Positions 2 to 28,677 of a stretch of DNA of 64,000 nt are shown here, in pieces; the stretch's first letter is position 1, and the number at the start of each line of letters is the position of its first letter. The position numbers were made by a program, and so were the translations under genes. The notes under the pieces are model-generated. The model did no database searches. It was not told the DNA's origin and saw only the letters and a list, made by a program, of their open reading frames with translations. This DNA comes from Polaromonas sp. (GTDB lineage: Bacteria > Pseudomonadota > Gammaproteobacteria > Burkholderiales > Burkholderiaceae_C), in contig NZ_JAQSDN010000039.1 in assembly GCF_029945925.1 (NCBI RefSeq), forward strand, positions 124,001 to 188,000, written 5' to 3'.

Positions 2-445
2 ATGATGCACCGCATGCTGTATTCACCCTTTGGCTACGCCATGCGTGCTGCACGCGATTCGGTGCTTCGCTCTGACGCGATCGGCATCGACGTCAAGCGC
101 ATGCAATGGGTGGCTTTTGTCATCGCCGGCACGTTCGCGGGCCTGGCCGGTGCGCTGTATGCCTTCTCCAAAGGCAGCATTTCCCCGGAAAGCCTGCATG
201 TGAGCAAATCCATCGACGGCCTGGTCATGGTGCTGCTGGGCGGCGTGCAGACGCTGGTGGGGCCCATCGTCGGCGCCGTCACCTTCACCTGGCTGCACGA
301 CACGGTGGCGCGCAACACCGACTACTGGCGCGCCATGCTGGGCGCCATCATCCTGATCCTGGTGCTGCTGTTTCCGCAAGGGATCGCCGGTTTTGTCCAG
401 CAACTGCTGTCGCGCCTGCGCGGCGCGAAGGAGGGGCAGTCATGA
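2..445 (+). CDS. livM: branched-chain-type ABC transporter permease LivM, 3' part
   Basis: C-terminal part of an inner-membrane permease of the LivM family, which imports branched-chain amino acids or related carboxylates. The gene enters the window already open, so the N-terminus lies outside and the first ATG here is probably internal. The visible part has the usual LivM elements: the SPFGYAMRAARDS stretch, the G(I/V)xVxxxK loop, then hydrophobic helices (WVAFVIAGTFAGLAGALYA, LVMVLLGGVQTLVGPIVG, AMLGAIILILVLLFPQG) and a basic tail. The stop codon overlaps the livG start as ATGA, so the two are translationally coupled. The substrate cannot be read from this fragment. The following nicotinamidase makes an N-heteroaromatic acid conceivable, but that is inference. 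Confidence 0.93.
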   Translation: MMHRMLYSPFGYAMRAARDSVLRSDAIGIDVKRMQWVAFVIAGTFAGLAGALYAFSKGSISPESLHVSKSIDGLVMVLLGGVQTLVGPIVGAVTFTWLHDTVARNTDYWRAMLGAIILILVLLFPQGIAGFVQQLLSRLRGAKEGQS

Positions 446-24248: not shown

Positions 24249-24271
24249 CCCCTGTCAATGTTGACAGGGGG
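24249..24271 (+). promoter_or_regulatory. lux-box-like operator upstream of the autoinducer synthase gene
   Basis: Perfect inverted repeat with two 10-base arms (CCCCTGTCAA and its complement) and a 2-base spacer. The core fits the LuxR-family pattern CTG-N10-CAG. Read toward the synthase gene it is CTGTCAATGTTGACAGGGGG, and 19 of these 20 bases recur at 28015-28034. The right arm contains a consensus -35 hexamer TTGACA, and the synthase ATG is 73 bp from the centre, the geometry of an activator site overlapping -35. No strong -10 is visible. Confidence 0.75.
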
Positions 24272-24332
24272 GGCAACCCTGAATTTGTTAAATTCATCTT
24301 CAATGGTGGTACTTTTTCACAAGGTAACCACC

Positions 24333-25592
24333 ATGCACGCTCAACTTCTCGAAAAATCCCCTGCACAACTCGTAACAAAAACTGTTACCAACCCGGGCAT
24401 CTCCCCGCATCTGCAGCAGCGCATTGCGCGCGAATTCACGCCCCGCTGGCAACAGCAATGGGGTGGCAAGTTTGTCCTTCACGGCAGAACGGCCGGTCCC
24501 GATGCCGTTCGGCTCGACGGCAACGATTACCTCAGCGTGACCGGCCACCCCGACATCGTCAGCGCCCAGGTGGCGGCCCTGCGCAACGACCGGGAGTTCG
24601 TGATCCAGTCCGGCGTGTTTGTGCATGGCGAACATCCCGCCCGGACACTGGAAAAAAACCTGGCCCAGTGGGTCGGAAAGGAAGACGGGTTTGTCTGCCA
24701 GTCCGGTTATGCGGCCAATGTGGGTTTGCTGCAGGCGATTGCCGACCCGCAAACCCCGGTGTACCTCGATACCCTGGCGCACACATCGCTGTGGGAAGGT
24801 GCGCATGCGGCGCGCGCCCCGGCGCATCCGTTTCGCCACAACGACCCGGACCACCTGGACCGGGTGTTGTCGCGGCACGGTCCGGGTGTGGTGGTGGTGG
24901 ACTCGGTGTACAGCACCACCGGCGCCTTGTGTCCCCTGCGCGAGATGGTGGAAGTGGCCGAGCGCCACGGCTGCATGATCCTGGTGGACGAGTCGCATTC
25001 GCTCGGCACCCATGGACCCGGCGGTGCCGGGCTGTGCGCCGAACTCGGTCTGACGGACCGGGTGCATTTCATCACGGCCAGTCTGGCCAAGGCCTTTGCC
25101 GGACGTGGTGGTTTTTTCACGGCGCCCGCCGAGTTGCGTTACTACATCCTCAGTTCCAGCTACCCCAATATCTTCAGCTCCTGCCTGCTGCCCCACGAGA
25201 TCGCCGGCCTCGGCGCCACACTCGCCGTGATCGGCAAACGCGATGAACAACGCCAGCGCCTGCGGGCCCATACGCTGCGGCTGCGCCGCAGCCTGTCTGA
25301 CATGGGTTACCCGATCCACCAGGGGACGGAGCAGATCATTTCCCTGGAGGCCGGCACCGAGCCTGACACCATGGTGCTGCGCGACCACCTGGAGGAACGC
25401 GGTGTTTTTGGTGCTGTGTTCTGTGCCCCGGCGACCAGCCGCAACCGGGCCATGGTGCGCCTGACCCTGCACGCGGGGCTGACCGATGCGGAGCTCAGCC
25501 ACGTGGAAGCGGTCGCTTACGAGGTCGCGCCGCTGGTGAAGCCCTGGGACTGGCCGATTGCCAGGCGGGCACGGACCGCTGAAACCAGTTAA
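24333..25592 (+). CDS. cqsA: alpha-hydroxyketone autoinducer synthase (CqsA/LqsA/JqsA family)
   Basis: PLP-dependent alpha-oxoamine-synthase-fold enzyme of 419 residues. By family it condenses an acyl-CoA with an amino-acid substrate (S-adenosylmethionine in Vibrio) to give the precursor of a CAI-1/LAI-1-type alpha-hydroxyketone signal. Residues seen: pyridine-ring Asp219 and His222 in VDESHSLG, and the PLP lysine Lys253 in ASLAKAFAGRGG. The N-terminal WGGKFVLHGR and LDGNDYLSVTGHP, IQSGVFVHGEHP and SYPNIFSSCLLPHE segments fit CqsA rather than biotin or heme synthases of the same fold. The neighbouring CqsS/LqsS-like kinase and LqsR-like regulator confirm the assignment. The ATG at 24333 follows AAGGT; ATG 24303 is a weaker alternative. 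It carries an upstream operator and ends 23 bp from the convergent regulator gene. Confidence 0.92.
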   Translation: MHAQLLEKSPAQLVTKTVTNPGISPHLQQRIAREFTPRWQQQWGGKFVLHGRTAGPDAVRLDGNDYLSVTGHPDIVSAQVAALRNDREFVIQSGVFVHGEHPARTLEKNLAQWVGKEDGFVCQSGYAANVGLLQAIADPQTPVYLDTLAHTSLWEGAHAARAPAHPFRHNDPDHLDRVLSRHGPGVVVVDSVYSTTGALCPLREMVEVAERHGCMILVDESHSLGTHGPGGAGLCAELGLTDRVHFITASLAKAFAGRGGFFTAPAELRYYILSSSYPNIFSSCLLPHEIAGLGATLAVIGKRDEQRQRLRAHTLRLRRSLSDMGYPIHQGTEQIISLEAGTEPDTMVLRDHLEERGVFGAVFCAPATSRNRAMVRLTLHAGLTDAELSHVEAVAYEVAPLVKPWDWPIARRARTAETS

Positions 25593-25615
25593 GTCTGCTG
25601 GAAGGCTCCGGAAGA

Positions 25616-26593
25616 CTAGTCCCGCACGGTGCGCCGGCCGTGTTTTTTGAGCCAGTGTTTGTAGCCGGTCAATCCCGGTGGACTGGCGGCCAGCTCGACC
25701 GGAAACAGGGCCCCCAGCACCGTGCCTTCGTGACCAATGGAAAACGCCGGAATCAGCCGCGCCGGTCCGGGTTGCCCCAGGGCTTGCTGAAGCTCGAGGT
25801 CCACCAGGTGGCGGCCGGCCCGGATGTCCTCAGCAGCGGCCGCCTTCAGGCCCTGCGACTCTGCCAGCTCCGCCAGATCGGCCAGGCCCGCGGCAGACTC
25901 CAGCTGCAGCCAGCTGGCGCGTCCGTCGGCGTCCATGCCCAGAATGCCGAAGGGCTGGCCAATGACCACATGTTCGACCCAGTGGCTGCTGGCCAGACTG
26001 GCGAGCTGGCGGGCCACCGACGGCACCTGCAGCAGGGCGTGCTGGGGCTGGGTCAGCGCGGCGCGCCAGATCTGCGAATGGCGCATTTGCGGCTGGGCCA
26101 GCATGCGCTGGATGACGGTGATCAGGTGCTGGGAGATATCGACGGTCTGCTTGGCAATGAACTGGTCGATCAGCCCCCGGTTGAAGGCGCTCACCGCCAC
26201 ATGTTCATCGGCCTGTCCGGTCAGCAGCACCCGGCCTCCCGGCCAGTCGGTCAACTCGCCCAGTGCCTGCAGGCCGTCCATGCCGGGCATGGCGTAATCG
26301 AACACGCAGACCCTGGCCAGACCGAAACGTTCGGTATGGTTGGCCCAGTAGTTCAGGATTTGCGGAATCAGCGGACTGCCGGCGCGCCAGCGCTCGATCA
26401 TCTCCTGCTGCGTCCATGCGTCGGCCTCCCACAGCGGCGGCTCCTGTTGCAGCTGGTTGATGCAGGTCTGCGGCCGCAGATACAGTTTGACGTGCCACTG
26501 GCGCGGCAACACCATCGCCAGCATCTCCAGATAAGCCGGGTCATCGTCAAGAAAAACGATGGCGCCCGGGCGATGGAACAAGGGAAAACTCAT
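25616..26593 (-). CDS. lqsR: LqsR-like response regulator without DNA-binding domain
   Basis: Phosphorylation-dependent regulator of 325 residues. The receiver domain starts with the acidic triad in VFLDDDP (16-18), has the phospho-acceptor Asp99 in VFDYAMPGMDG, Thr in LLTGQAD and Lys148 in FIAKQ. The acceptor lies some 45 residues later than in ordinary receivers because of an inserted helix-rich segment (QLQQEPPLWEADAW...). LqsR of Legionella is similar (acceptor near 108, from memory). The remaining 170 residues hold no helix-turn-helix or enzyme motif that I recognise, so the output is not obvious DNA binding. The gene follows the kinase gene by 20 bp on the same strand. The start at 26593 (MSFPLF) was chosen because the extra upstream residues are low-complexity shadow sequence. 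Confidence 0.87.
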   Translation of the reverse strand: MSFPLFHRPGAIVFLDDDPAYLEMLAMVLPRQWHVKLYLRPQTCINQLQQEPPLWEADAWTQQEMIERWRAGSPLIPQILNYWANHTERFGLARVCVFDYAMPGMDGLQALGELTDWPGGRVLLTGQADEHVAVSAFNRGLIDQFIAKQTVDISQHLITVIQRMLAQPQMRHSQIWRAALTQPQHALLQVPSVARQLASLASSHWVEHVVIGQPFGILGMDADGRASWLQLESAAGLADLAELAESQGLKAAAAEDIRAGRHLVDLELQQALGQPGPARLIPAFSIGHEGTVLGALFPVELAASPPGLTGYKHWLKKHGRRTVRD

Positions 26594-26613
26594 GGGTGCG
26601 CGTGTGGGTTGTG

Positions 26614-27969
26614 TTACCTGAGAACCGGAAGCTCGATGATGAAGATGGCGCCGCGTCCGGGTTCCGACTTCACCCGGATGGTGCCGCCGGCACTTTCCAC
26701 CACCTGCTGGCAAAAAGCCAGTCCCAGGCCGTGGCCGGTACCGCGATCGGTTGAGAAAAACGGCTCGAAAATGCGCGCCTGCAATTCCGGCGCGATGCCG
26801 GTGCCCTGGTCGGTGACGATGATGCGCCCGTAACCGTTGAGCACCCCGACTTCGATGCGCAGGTCGCCGGGTTTGGCTGCCGAACTGGTTGCCGCCAGCG
26901 CGCGAAAGGCGTTTTTGAGCAGGTTGTTGATGACCTGCGCGAACAACCGGTAGGACGACTCGAAGGAAAAATCCTTGCGCAGCACCAGCACCACGCTTTC
27001 GCGTTCCCGCGAATTGCGATAAGGGTAGTCCTTGACCACATTGCGCAGCAGCGCAGCGGCGGCCACGGATTCCCGGTGCGTCGGCAGGCGCAGCAGGCGT
27101 GCGTTGGCAATCTGCGTGTCGATCTGCTGGTTCATGTTGCGCACGAGGGTGTGCAGCCTGACGACCAGCTGGTCCAGCCGCTGGCCGCCACCGGGCTCCG
27201 TGACCTGCCGGCTTTCATTGCGCACGGCGTCGCCGATCAGCGACATCGTGGCCAGCGGCGTACGCAGTTCGTGCGCCATGATGCCCATGGTGGTCAGCGT
27301 GTGCTGCAGGTGCTCGCGCCGCAGGTTGGCCGACGACAGTCCCAGCAGCAGGGCGCTGGCCCAGCTGAACGCGATGACGACGGCGTTGATGGAAAACTGC
27401 TGCTCACTCATGGAAGGAAGGGCCGGGCCGAAGGCCTTGAACAGCGTCCAGGCCAGCAGGGCGCCGCTGACCGTCCCCAGGGTGGCCGCACGCCAGTCGG
27501 TCACATGGTAATAAATCAGCACCATGGCGCAAAAGCTGGCCAGCCAGACCGTGTTGCCGTTGTTGCAAAGATACATCCAGCTGAAAAAAACCGGCAGCTG
27601 GATCCAGAAAACCACGGAAAAAATCCGCGCCGAAAGTTTGCTGGAAGGATCGTTGGTGATGCTCTCCGAGATCAGCAGCAAGCCCAGCGTGCCCATGACA
27701 GCGCGAAGCGCGGGGCTCTCGTAGGGCTGGGGTAACCACTGTCCCCAGATCCACCCAAACAGGGGATGTCCCACCAGCGTGAACAGCCCGAGCCAGCGCA
27801 GGCGCCAGCGCGACGGGTGCAAAATGAGAACCAGCTGCTCCTGGAGCAGTTCAGCCCTGATTCGCGCAAACCACAGCCGCGCCCACGCGCCGGGGCTGCT
27901 CCACAGCGTGCGAATCTTTTGTTTGATCCTGGCGGGTACTCCGGAAGTCATGCGTAAATTTTCGAACAT
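26614..27969 (-). CDS. lqsS: membrane sensor histidine kinase (CqsS/LqsS/JqsS-like)
   Basis: Sensor of 451 residues for the neighbouring synthase's signal. The N-terminal half has about six TM segments (residues 60-78, 86-101, 117-134, 140-154, 161-178, 193-212) with almost no periplasmic domain, as in CqsS. The phospho-acceptor is His233 in MAHELRTPL. The ATPase domain shows an N-box NNLLKNAFRA, G1 VTDQGTGIAP, F-box FEPFFST and G2 GHGLGLAFC. There is no C-terminal receiver, unlike Vibrio CqsS, so phosphate presumably goes to the LqsR-like protein encoded 20 bp downstream. The start is uncertain: ATG 27969 or ATG 27951, neither with a good ribosome site. A lux-box-like operator lies about 57 bp upstream. 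Confidence 0.9.
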   Translation of the reverse strand: MFENLRMTSGVPARIKQKIRTLWSSPGAWARLWFARIRAELLQEQLVLILHPSRWRLRWLGLFTLVGHPLFGWIWGQWLPQPYESPALRAVMGTLGLLLISESITNDPSSKLSARIFSVVFWIQLPVFFSWMYLCNNGNTVWLASFCAMVLIYYHVTDWRAATLGTVSGALLAWTLFKAFGPALPSMSEQQFSINAVVIAFSWASALLLGLSSANLRREHLQHTLTTMGIMAHELRTPLATMSLIGDAVRNESRQVTEPGGGQRLDQLVVRLHTLVRNMNQQIDTQIANARLLRLPTHRESVAAAALLRNVVKDYPYRNSRERESVVLVLRKDFSFESSYRLFAQVINNLLKNAFRALAATSSAAKPGDLRIEVGVLNGYGRIIVTDQGTGIAPELQARIFEPFFSTDRGTGHGLGLAFCQQVVESAGGTIRVKSEPGRGAIFIIELPVLR

Positions 27970-27972
27970 ATC

Positions 27973-27984
27973 ACAATGCATTGT
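27973..27984. promoter_or_regulatory. 12-bp palindrome between kinase and LuxR genes
   Basis: ACAATGCATTGT, a perfect palindrome, in the 33-bp space between the divergent ATGs of the kinase and the LuxR-type gene. With so little room the promoters must overlap the coding ends. The palindrome might be an operator or an RNA element near the kinase start. Confidence 0.4.
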
Positions 27985-28002
27985 CACAGTTCCGGAGCAA
28001 GA

Positions 28003-28677
28003 ATGACGATGCGTCCCCCTGTCAACTTTGACAGTATTGCGCTGGACAGCATGTTGAGCGACTGGATCTCCGCATTGCGCGAATTTTCCGTCGAGGCGGT
28101 GGTGGTCCTGAGCCCGGACCCGTTTGGCCAGCGGCAGGACCGGCTGGTGGCAGCAGTCCACCCACCCCGCTTTATCGACGCAGCGCTTGCGCTGGCAGAA
28201 AGCCAGGACTTCGGCGCGCCGTGGCGCGAATCGGATGCATCCCTCGTGGCCTGGCAGCACATTGGCAAGGCAGAGGCCGGCAACACCAGCCGCTGGCGCC
28301 TGTTATGGCTGGCCCACGGTTTCCAGAGTGTGGTGCGCATCGAGTTTCCCCTGCCATCAGGGCGGGCCTTCGAGTGTTTCATTTTCAGTCCACGCCAGTT
28401 TCACGACCGCGCCGAGGCTGCGGCGCTGGTCTGGTCGGCCCTCAATATCTGGCCCTTGTTCAAGCGCACGATGGCCCAGGCCAGCAGCCCGCTGAGCCCG
28501 CGCGAGGGCGAATGCCTGGCGCTGGCCTTTGAAGGCCTGACGGCGCGCCAGAGCGCCGAGCGCCTGCATTGCGCCGAACGTACGGTGAACTACCACCTGT
28601 CCAACGCCATGGCCAAACTCAAGGTGGACAACAAGATGTCGGCGATTCAACGCGCCTGCTGGCTCGGCGTGATCTGA
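28003..28677 (+). CDS. LuxR-type transcriptional regulator
   Basis: DNA-binding regulator of 224 residues. The C-terminal 65 residues are a clear LuxR/GerE helix-turn-helix: LSPREGECLALAFEGLTARQSAERLHCAERTVNYHLSNAMAKL. The N-terminal 155 residues have the size and loose pattern of the LuxR ligand domain (WLAHGFQSVVRIEFPLPSGRAFECFIFS), but I cannot pick out the canonical acyl-homoserine-lactone residues, and no LuxI is near. It is divergent from the kinase gene with 33 bp between starts; a GGAG ribosome site sets the start at 28003 (ATG 28009 also possible). A lux-box-like element lies inside its codons 5-11. It is the natural candidate to bind the two identical boxes of this locus. Confidence 0.87.
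   Translation: MTMRPPVNFDSIALDSMLSDWISALREFSVEAVVVLSPDPFGQRQDRLVAAVHPPRFIDAALALAESQDFGAPWRESDASLVAWQHIGKAEAGNTSRWRLLWLAHGFQSVVRIEFPLPSGRAFECFIFSPRQFHDRAEAAALVWSALNIWPLFKRTMAQASSPLSPREGECLALAFEGLTARQSAERLHCAERTVNYHLSNAMAKLKVDNKMSAIQRACWLGVI
28015..28034 (-). promoter_or_regulatory. second lux-box-like operator, upstream of the kinase gene and inside luxR
   Basis: On the minus strand it reads CTGTCAAAGTTGACAGGGGG, identical to the element before the synthase gene at 19 of 20 positions and in the same orientation relative to the downstream gene. It is centred 57 bp upstream of the kinase ATG and also carries TTGACA in the proximal arm. It lies within codons 5-11 of the divergent LuxR-type gene. 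Confidence 0.75.

Follow-up and report, generated by a model that had tools for sequence, protein, structure and literature searches.

Positions 24249-28677 of a 64,000-nucleotide stretch of Polaromonas sp. contig NZ_JAQSDN010000039.1 (the whole stretch is referred to here as the window) hold four genes: a CqsA/LqsA-type synthase, an LqsR-like regulator, a histidine kinase and a LuxR-type gene. We read them as a locus for alpha-hydroxyketone quorum sensing of the Lqs/Cqs type that probably carries its own transcription arm, in which the LqsR-like protein would gate the LuxR-type protein, and the LuxR-type protein would activate the lqs genes and a few others. Across the family the four genes stay together, and conserved operator-like sites lie at the synthase promoter and upstream of the kinase-lqsR operon. 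These palindromic boxes, near the starts of the synthase and luxR genes, are the strongest evidence, and they were absent from the preliminary description of this DNA. That description had proposed the LuxR protein as a built-in transcription arm, a proposal that the comparative sequence evidence supports through gene co-occurrence, the operator-like sites at both lqs promoters, and the genome of Polaromonas sp. OV174. The features of the locus are the following (aa, amino acids; HTH, helix-turn-helix; ORF, open reading frame).

24252..24267, no strand assigned: box 1, palindrome CTGTCAATGTTGACAG resembling a lux box; 65 bp separate its end from the synthase start codon downstream
24299..24304, + strand: TTCAAT, putative -10 element for the synthase, with near-fixed spacing from box 1
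24333..25592, + strand: alpha-hydroxyketone synthase (LqsA/CqsA/JqsA type), 419 aa, by NF005526, CqsA structures, Lys253 and Asp219
25616..26593, - strand: LqsR-like response regulator, 325 aa, receiver Asp99, by a match to 6sy9 and Response_reg
26614..27969, - strand: membrane histidine kinase (LqsS/CqsS type), 451 aa, His233, by HATPase_c
27980..27985, - strand: GACAAT, putative -10 element for kinase-lqsR; the centre of box 2 is 44 bp away
28009..28677, + strand: LuxR-type (GerE HTH) transcription regulator, 222 aa, by GerE and the start in relatives; the longest ORF runs from 27976
28019..28034, no strand assigned: box 2, palindrome CTGTCAACTTTGACAG, in luxR codons 4-9 and upstream of the divergent kinase-lqsR operon

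Within the window, CTGTCAANNTTGACAG matches nowhere but at boxes 1 and 2 when up to two mismatches are allowed; shuffled windows have a mean of 0.16 matches, and 2/100 shuffles reached two. We compared the locus with 75 relatives, mostly Comamonadaceae. This set is the best 80 of 117 synthase matches (79 loci) minus four loci from other phyla (L084-L087) that are outside the synteny and box counts, and it is biased to near relatives. The strict pattern CTGTCA-N4-TGACAG occurs 90 times in the 75 loci (1.14 Mb), 58 times before the synthase, 32 times at the luxR 5' end, and 0 times elsewhere. Five other palindromes of the 6-N4-6 form, taken as a control, have 0 occurrences in the same loci. Relaxing one arm base gives 115 matches, 65 before the synthase and 49 at the luxR start; the single match elsewhere is in L080, roughly where luxR would begin. 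The 4.78-Mb genome to which the window belongs has four exact CTGTCAN4TGACAG sites, two of them within the locus, and 0 sites for the reversed pattern. The window shuffles, the reversed-pattern control and the placement in the 75 loci argue against chance as the origin of the box.

Box 1 is found as CTGTnAnnnnTnACAG before the synthase in 65 of the 72 relatives with enough upstream sequence, between flanks that have only about 30% pairwise identity. The arms of these sites are 98% identical and the centre 36%, a contrast due in part to the sites having been selected by pattern. The element TTCAAT appears at +44..+56 of the box 1 start in 63/66 sequences (window included), mostly from +46 or +47, and no conserved -35 was seen at the synthase promoter among the sequences compared. 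Box 2 lies inside a coding sequence, and there the choice of synonymous codons is informative. Its Pro codon is CCT in 68/69 luxR genes (window included), compared to 8.7% in the rest of the genes; its Phe codon is TTT in 68/69, compared to 37% elsewhere in the same genes; and its Ser codon is AGT in 50/69, compared to 9% elsewhere in the same genes. Because synonymous codon choice is nearly fixed in the 69 genes, we take box 2 to be constrained at the DNA level, and we disfavour mere coding conservation. GACAAT appears at +42..+62 of the box 2 start in 46/67 sequences, and ACAAT in 54/67; the spacing from box 2 to this -10 element falls into two distance classes, +47..50 and +55..57. Under a stricter palindrome rule, box 1 is found in 64/77 cases and box 2 in 54/69. 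We also observe a near-palindrome, TCACAATGCATTGTCA, at window positions 27971-27986, overlapping the putative kinase -10 element.

The preliminary description had suggested examining the co-occurrence and the synteny of these genes, and both are found. All four genes are present in 68 of the 75 relatives. Five loci (L019, L065, L070, L080 and L082) run off the contig ahead of luxR or within it, L044 is without a LuxR match, and L067 has the synthase and part of LuxR only. For a view at the level of whole genomes, we sampled the family evenly, taking 398 genomes with a completeness of 80% or more, in which LuxR was counted at E<=1e-20 (setting aside G068, with 30% identity to LuxR) and the synthase over its cut-off. 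LuxR is present in 40 of these genomes and the synthase in 35, with 32 having both (Fisher p ~3e-36, not corrected for phylogeny), so that 32/35 synthase genomes carry LuxR. A search of 300 genomes from the order matched this LuxR in 3 of them, each a member of the same family. The added LuxR gene had been described as unusual; it is part of an arrangement spread across the family, and not limited to the genome at hand.

The LqsR-like gene (E<=1e-59) is present in 49/398 family genomes, among them all 40 LuxR genomes. Eight LuxR genomes are without the synthase (G053, G067, G156, G167, G243, G262, G305 and G360). Because all eight keep LuxR divergently adjacent to the LqsR-like gene, the firmest partner of LuxR is the LqsR-like gene (40/40) and not the signal maker (32/40). 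The kinase was unmatched in the stretches read from these eight genomes, and kinases elsewhere in them were not searched.

Several other loci carry parts of this gene set. The plasmids L239 (CP087967.1, Polaromonas sp. P1-6) and L240 (NC_008757.1, the conjugative plasmid pPNAP01 of P. naphthalenivorans CJ2) have LuxR-type and LqsR-like genes. L239 also has kinase matches in two annotated pieces, the synthase is unmatched in both stretches, and these could be receiver-only copies. In L209-L213 (genus g69: G244, G068, G361, G306 and G168), the LqsR-like gene adjoins the same amidase gene as luxR does in the window, while LuxR, kinase and synthase are all unmatched in the stretch. Two further plasmids, L241 (4465-5103, Polaromonas sp. 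JS666) and L242 (4459-5145, Comamonadaceae bacterium OS-4), have distant LuxR-type relatives (31-32%), with lqs genes unmatched in the stretch. The loci of other phyla, L084-L087, are synthase relatives at 43-50% identity in two Chlorobiaceae metagenome-assembled genomes, Streptomyces natalensis and Nonomuraea endophytica, with LqsR-like and LuxR genes unmatched nearby. L015, a contig labelled as a Brevundimonas metagenome-assembled genome, has a Polaromonas-like locus (86% synthase identity) and is probably mis-binned.

The distribution of the strict box over genomes follows that of LuxR. It is found in 30/40 LuxR genomes and in 63/358 others, in a comparison uncorrected for shared ancestry, with 2.1 sites per genome with LuxR and 0.24 without, locus sites included. 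Polaromonas sp. OV174 (L044) has kept the synthase, the LqsR-like gene and the kinase, LuxR is unmatched in it (E<=1e-8), and its genome has 0 sites; the genomes behind L043 and L083, with LuxR, have sites. The palindromes could instead be operators of a different regulator encoded elsewhere, with LuxR a mere neighbour, and the 63 LuxR-less genomes with a strict site, three LuxR-less synthase genomes (one or two sites each) among them, speak for that reading. We give it a low probability: the sites can be predicted from whether LuxR is present, none occurs in OV174, where LuxR is unmatched, and the stretches of 10-13 kb surrounding the synthase in those three LuxR-less synthase genomes (L179-L181) contain no site. 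LuxR-family boxes have a CTG-N10-CAG geometry, and the palindrome upstream of the synthase promoter fits it, which also favours LuxR over another regulator.

A number of observations weigh against a LuxR-type protein acting through these boxes under the control of the LqsR-like protein. Box 1 is missing or degenerate in 7/72 relatives (L029, L037, L044, L054, L060, L077 and L079; degenerate by eye in L054, L060 and L077), and six of these still have a LuxR match. The genomes behind L029 and L037, in which LuxR is diverged (54 and 56% identity), have no site; either LuxR and its site have co-evolved, or the box is not essential. In total, 10/40 LuxR genomes are without a strict site, including G264 and G324 of the same genus, G264 having near matches to the box at both places. 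Conversely, a few of the 63 LuxR-less genomes with the strict box have 3-5 sites, and the LuxR-less synthase genomes hold one (G008), one (G123) and two (G392). The LqsR-like gene is found without this LuxR in 9/49 genomes (G008, G034, G068, G126, G168, G234, G244, G306 and G361). Finally, of 20 sites read outside the locus in close genomes, 10 belong to two recurring targets, 2 lie before a glyA-like gene, and 8 are single.

The proposed mechanism is as follows. The synthase would make a hydroxyketone, which the membrane kinase would sense, altering the phosphorylation of Asp99 in the LqsR-like protein. The LqsR-like protein, without a recognised DNA-binding domain, would then gate the LuxR-type protein. 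A LuxR dimer would bind CTGTCA-N4-TGACAG, with about 42-44 bp from the centre of this site to the centre of the TTCAAT or GACAAT -10 element downstream, and would activate both the synthase gene and the kinase-lqsR operon, resulting in feedback on signal production and on sensing. We infer the DNA binding, its sign, the LqsR-LuxR step and the identity of the signal from sequence. As to the sign, promoter geometry, in which the site precedes a promoter that shows no conserved -35, is the one reason to propose an activator rather than a repressor.

As to what feeds the LuxR-type protein, the reading with the fewest assumptions would have the LqsR-like protein provide the input. The HTH domain has RhlR as its best match among solved structures, and a weak alignment to CviR reaches into the N-terminal half. 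Autoind_bind (PF03472) was not matched in this LuxR in the Pfam scan, nor at E<=10 in the genome of the window. The motif W-x3-Y-x8-DP, a signature of the pocket for acyl-homoserine lactones (AHLs), is present in two Autoind_bind proteins and not in the four family rows compared, where the alignment is weak. No LuxI (Autoind_synth PF00765) was found in the genome of the window, and it is over cut-off in 0/41 same-genus genomes. An AHL receptor is thus disfavoured, LuxI being over cut-off in none of the 41 same-genus genomes and Autoind_bind unmatched at E<=10. One could also propose that the LuxR-type protein directly senses the hydroxyketone, or a metabolite related to it, as a receptor inside the cell, in parallel to the kinase and the LqsR-like protein, in the manner of LuxI/LuxR with another class of signal. 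The genomic association of LuxR with the synthase fits such a receptor, as does an HTH nearest to those of quorum-sensing LuxR proteins together with the CviR alignment. We still consider it unlikely, given the eight synthase-less genomes that all keep LuxR beside the LqsR-like gene, and an N-terminal domain that is not recognised as Autoind_bind. Highly improbable, in our estimate, is a LuxR solo responding to AHLs or to some other signal that sits beside the lqs genes by chance. In its favour, SolR is the name of an AHL regulator, and the JGI source labels many of the relatives listed 'SolR'; one same-genus genome of 41, G264, has a sub-threshold LuxI match (21.6 bits, cut-off 24), and one genome of 21, G713, has an Autoind_bind match over cut-off. 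Such a solo is hard to reconcile with boxes located at the lqs promoters, with the 0/41 count for Autoind_synth, and with the results for Autoind_bind; the weakly aligned W-x3-Y-x8-DP region may point the same way.

A broader reading, for which we would claim perhaps one chance in three, is that the LqsR-like and LuxR-type proteins form a portable two-part output module in which a receiver gates a partner LuxR. Such a module would be used in hydroxyketone signalling here, would occur in the eight synthase-less genomes with no kinase matched alongside, and would be found beside LuxI/LuxR in L215 and L216, where it was perhaps assembled separately. In L215 (5673-8690, G126) and L216 (6106-9139, G034), a distant LqsR-like gene (39% identity) lies beside LuxI and an Autoind_bind LuxR. 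The L215 LuxI and both LuxR proteins are supported by Pfam, and the L216 LuxI by resemblance only. These are apparently AHL systems fitted with an LqsR-like protein, and they give an independent hint that LuxR could take its input from such a partner. As a point against a shared module, the phospho-site Asp of the L215 LqsR-like protein, which has no Pfam match, seems by eye to be replaced, and it is kept in L216; we lowered our estimate slightly because the Asp of L215 is seemingly lost. A module of this kind, if true, would explain how regulators of the LqsR family reach DNA in this family, and would suggest LuxR-type partners elsewhere.

Candidate targets outside the locus come from 12 hand-picked close genomes with 44 strict sites, 24 of them outside the locus, of which we read 20, plus the two in the genome of the window. 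In close relatives, the outside targets of the LuxR-type protein would be two genes, one for a type I secretion ABC transporter and one for a small protein. The box precedes the ABC transporter gene at the promoter in 6/13 genomes, with the ORF in 5 of these. The protein is HlyB-like (581.6 bits, below the cut-off of 725.55), and in the genome of the window an HlyD-type adaptor over its cut-off follows the gene. The box also lies before a gene encoding some 105 aa in 6/13 genomes, with no Pfam or NCBIfam family for its product; in the genome of the window it is next to a receiver-domain gene. The box-preceded ~105 aa protein is seen in L088 (1501-2572), followed there by a stand-alone receiver-domain gene, and in L157-L161. 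The strict box before the glyA-like (serine hydroxymethyltransferase) gene (L170:2500 and L171:2514) lacks the ACCC/GGGT flanks and is perhaps a coincidence.

The individual genes mostly bear out what the preliminary description had assigned. The CqsA/LqsA-type synthase scores 581.9 bits (cut-off 428) for NCBIfam NF005526, 'alpha-hydroxyketone-type quorum-sensing autoinducer synthase', its nearest solved structures are CqsA 3hqt and 2wk8 (E ~1e-106), and Lys253 and Asp219 are right given a start at 24333. The LqsR-like regulator has the Asp99 claimed for it, and its match to the solved structure of Legionella LqsR, 6sy9 (E 3.2e-16), takes in the region of the phospho-site. Its Response_reg match (28.3 bits) is slightly below the cut-off of 30.2, and the Pfam scan gave no further match and no recognised DNA-binding domain. 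For the kinase, His233 and the lack of a receiver domain match in Pfam agree with the earlier account; the six membrane helices were not cleanly separated by a simple hydropathy scan at a threshold of 1.3. Its Pfam matches are HATPase_c (7.3e-26) and HisKA (21.9 bits, below the cut-off of 26.9). The lqsR-like and kinase genes have 20 bp between them and no intervening gene. The LuxR-type protein has a C-terminal GerE HTH (PF00196, E 3.1e-16), and its start at 28009 is backed by relatives, being a codon position common to most rows compared. The gene, which had been called divergent, is so relative to kinase-lqsR and runs in the same direction as the synthase. No RNA families were found in the window at the gathering threshold.

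Within 4.5 kb, this environmental bacterial family has operator-like sites together with a candidate for the partner that would bind DNA, bearing on the route from LqsR to DNA. The locus makes that question directly testable, with a predicted set of target genes, and the natural variants without LuxR or without the synthase can be used for comparison. In published work, the output domain of LqsR is likened to that of a diguanylate cyclase, with a signature that is degenerate and without activity seen in vitro (PMC10653808). The lqs clusters are widespread in Alpha-, Beta- and Gammaproteobacteria with PhcX/LqsR, Hydrogenophaga being named (PMC10653808, 2023), and a 2012 review already listed Polaromonas for Lqs (PMC3376566). 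In the open-licence literature searched, we found no published description of this LuxR gene or box; the main text of the 2023 survey never mentions luxr, and the fourth gene and the boxes are not described there (PMC10653808). Lqs clusters in Polaromonas and other Betaproteobacteria are thus already published, and the LuxR gene and the box appear to be the new part.

The locus resembles Legionella Lqs (LqsA, LqsR, LqsS) in its clustered synthase, LqsR-type regulator and kinase, whereas the LuxR-type gene and the conserved operator-like boxes belong to the present locus. In Legionella, hdeD lies between lqsR and the kinase genes (PMC3376566), while the present pair has no gene in between, and LvbR is the transcription factor mentioned in connection with the Legionella system (PMC11237717). 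The Jqs system of Janthinobacterium and Duganella is a betaproteobacterial cluster with the same make-up of synthase, kinase and response regulator; in the portions available it is described without a LuxR gene, and its motif TTGA-N6/7-TCAA differs from CTGTCA-N4-TGACAG (PMC3566124, PMC5080296). Vibrio Cqs (CqsA/CqsS) shares the synthase family and provides the nearest solved structures. It is described as a cluster without an LqsR homologue (PMC3566124) that signals via LuxU/LuxO (PMC3376566), in contrast to the receiver-less kinase, the LqsR-like protein and the LuxR-type protein found here. With the LuxI/LuxR systems for AHLs, the locus shares a LuxR-type HTH protein near a signal synthase and a CTG-N10-CAG-type box at the synthase promoter. 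It differs from them in that the synthase is a pyridoxal phosphate enzyme of the hydroxyketone family, in that the LuxR is without a recognised autoinducer-binding domain, and in that the unit also includes a kinase and an LqsR-like protein.

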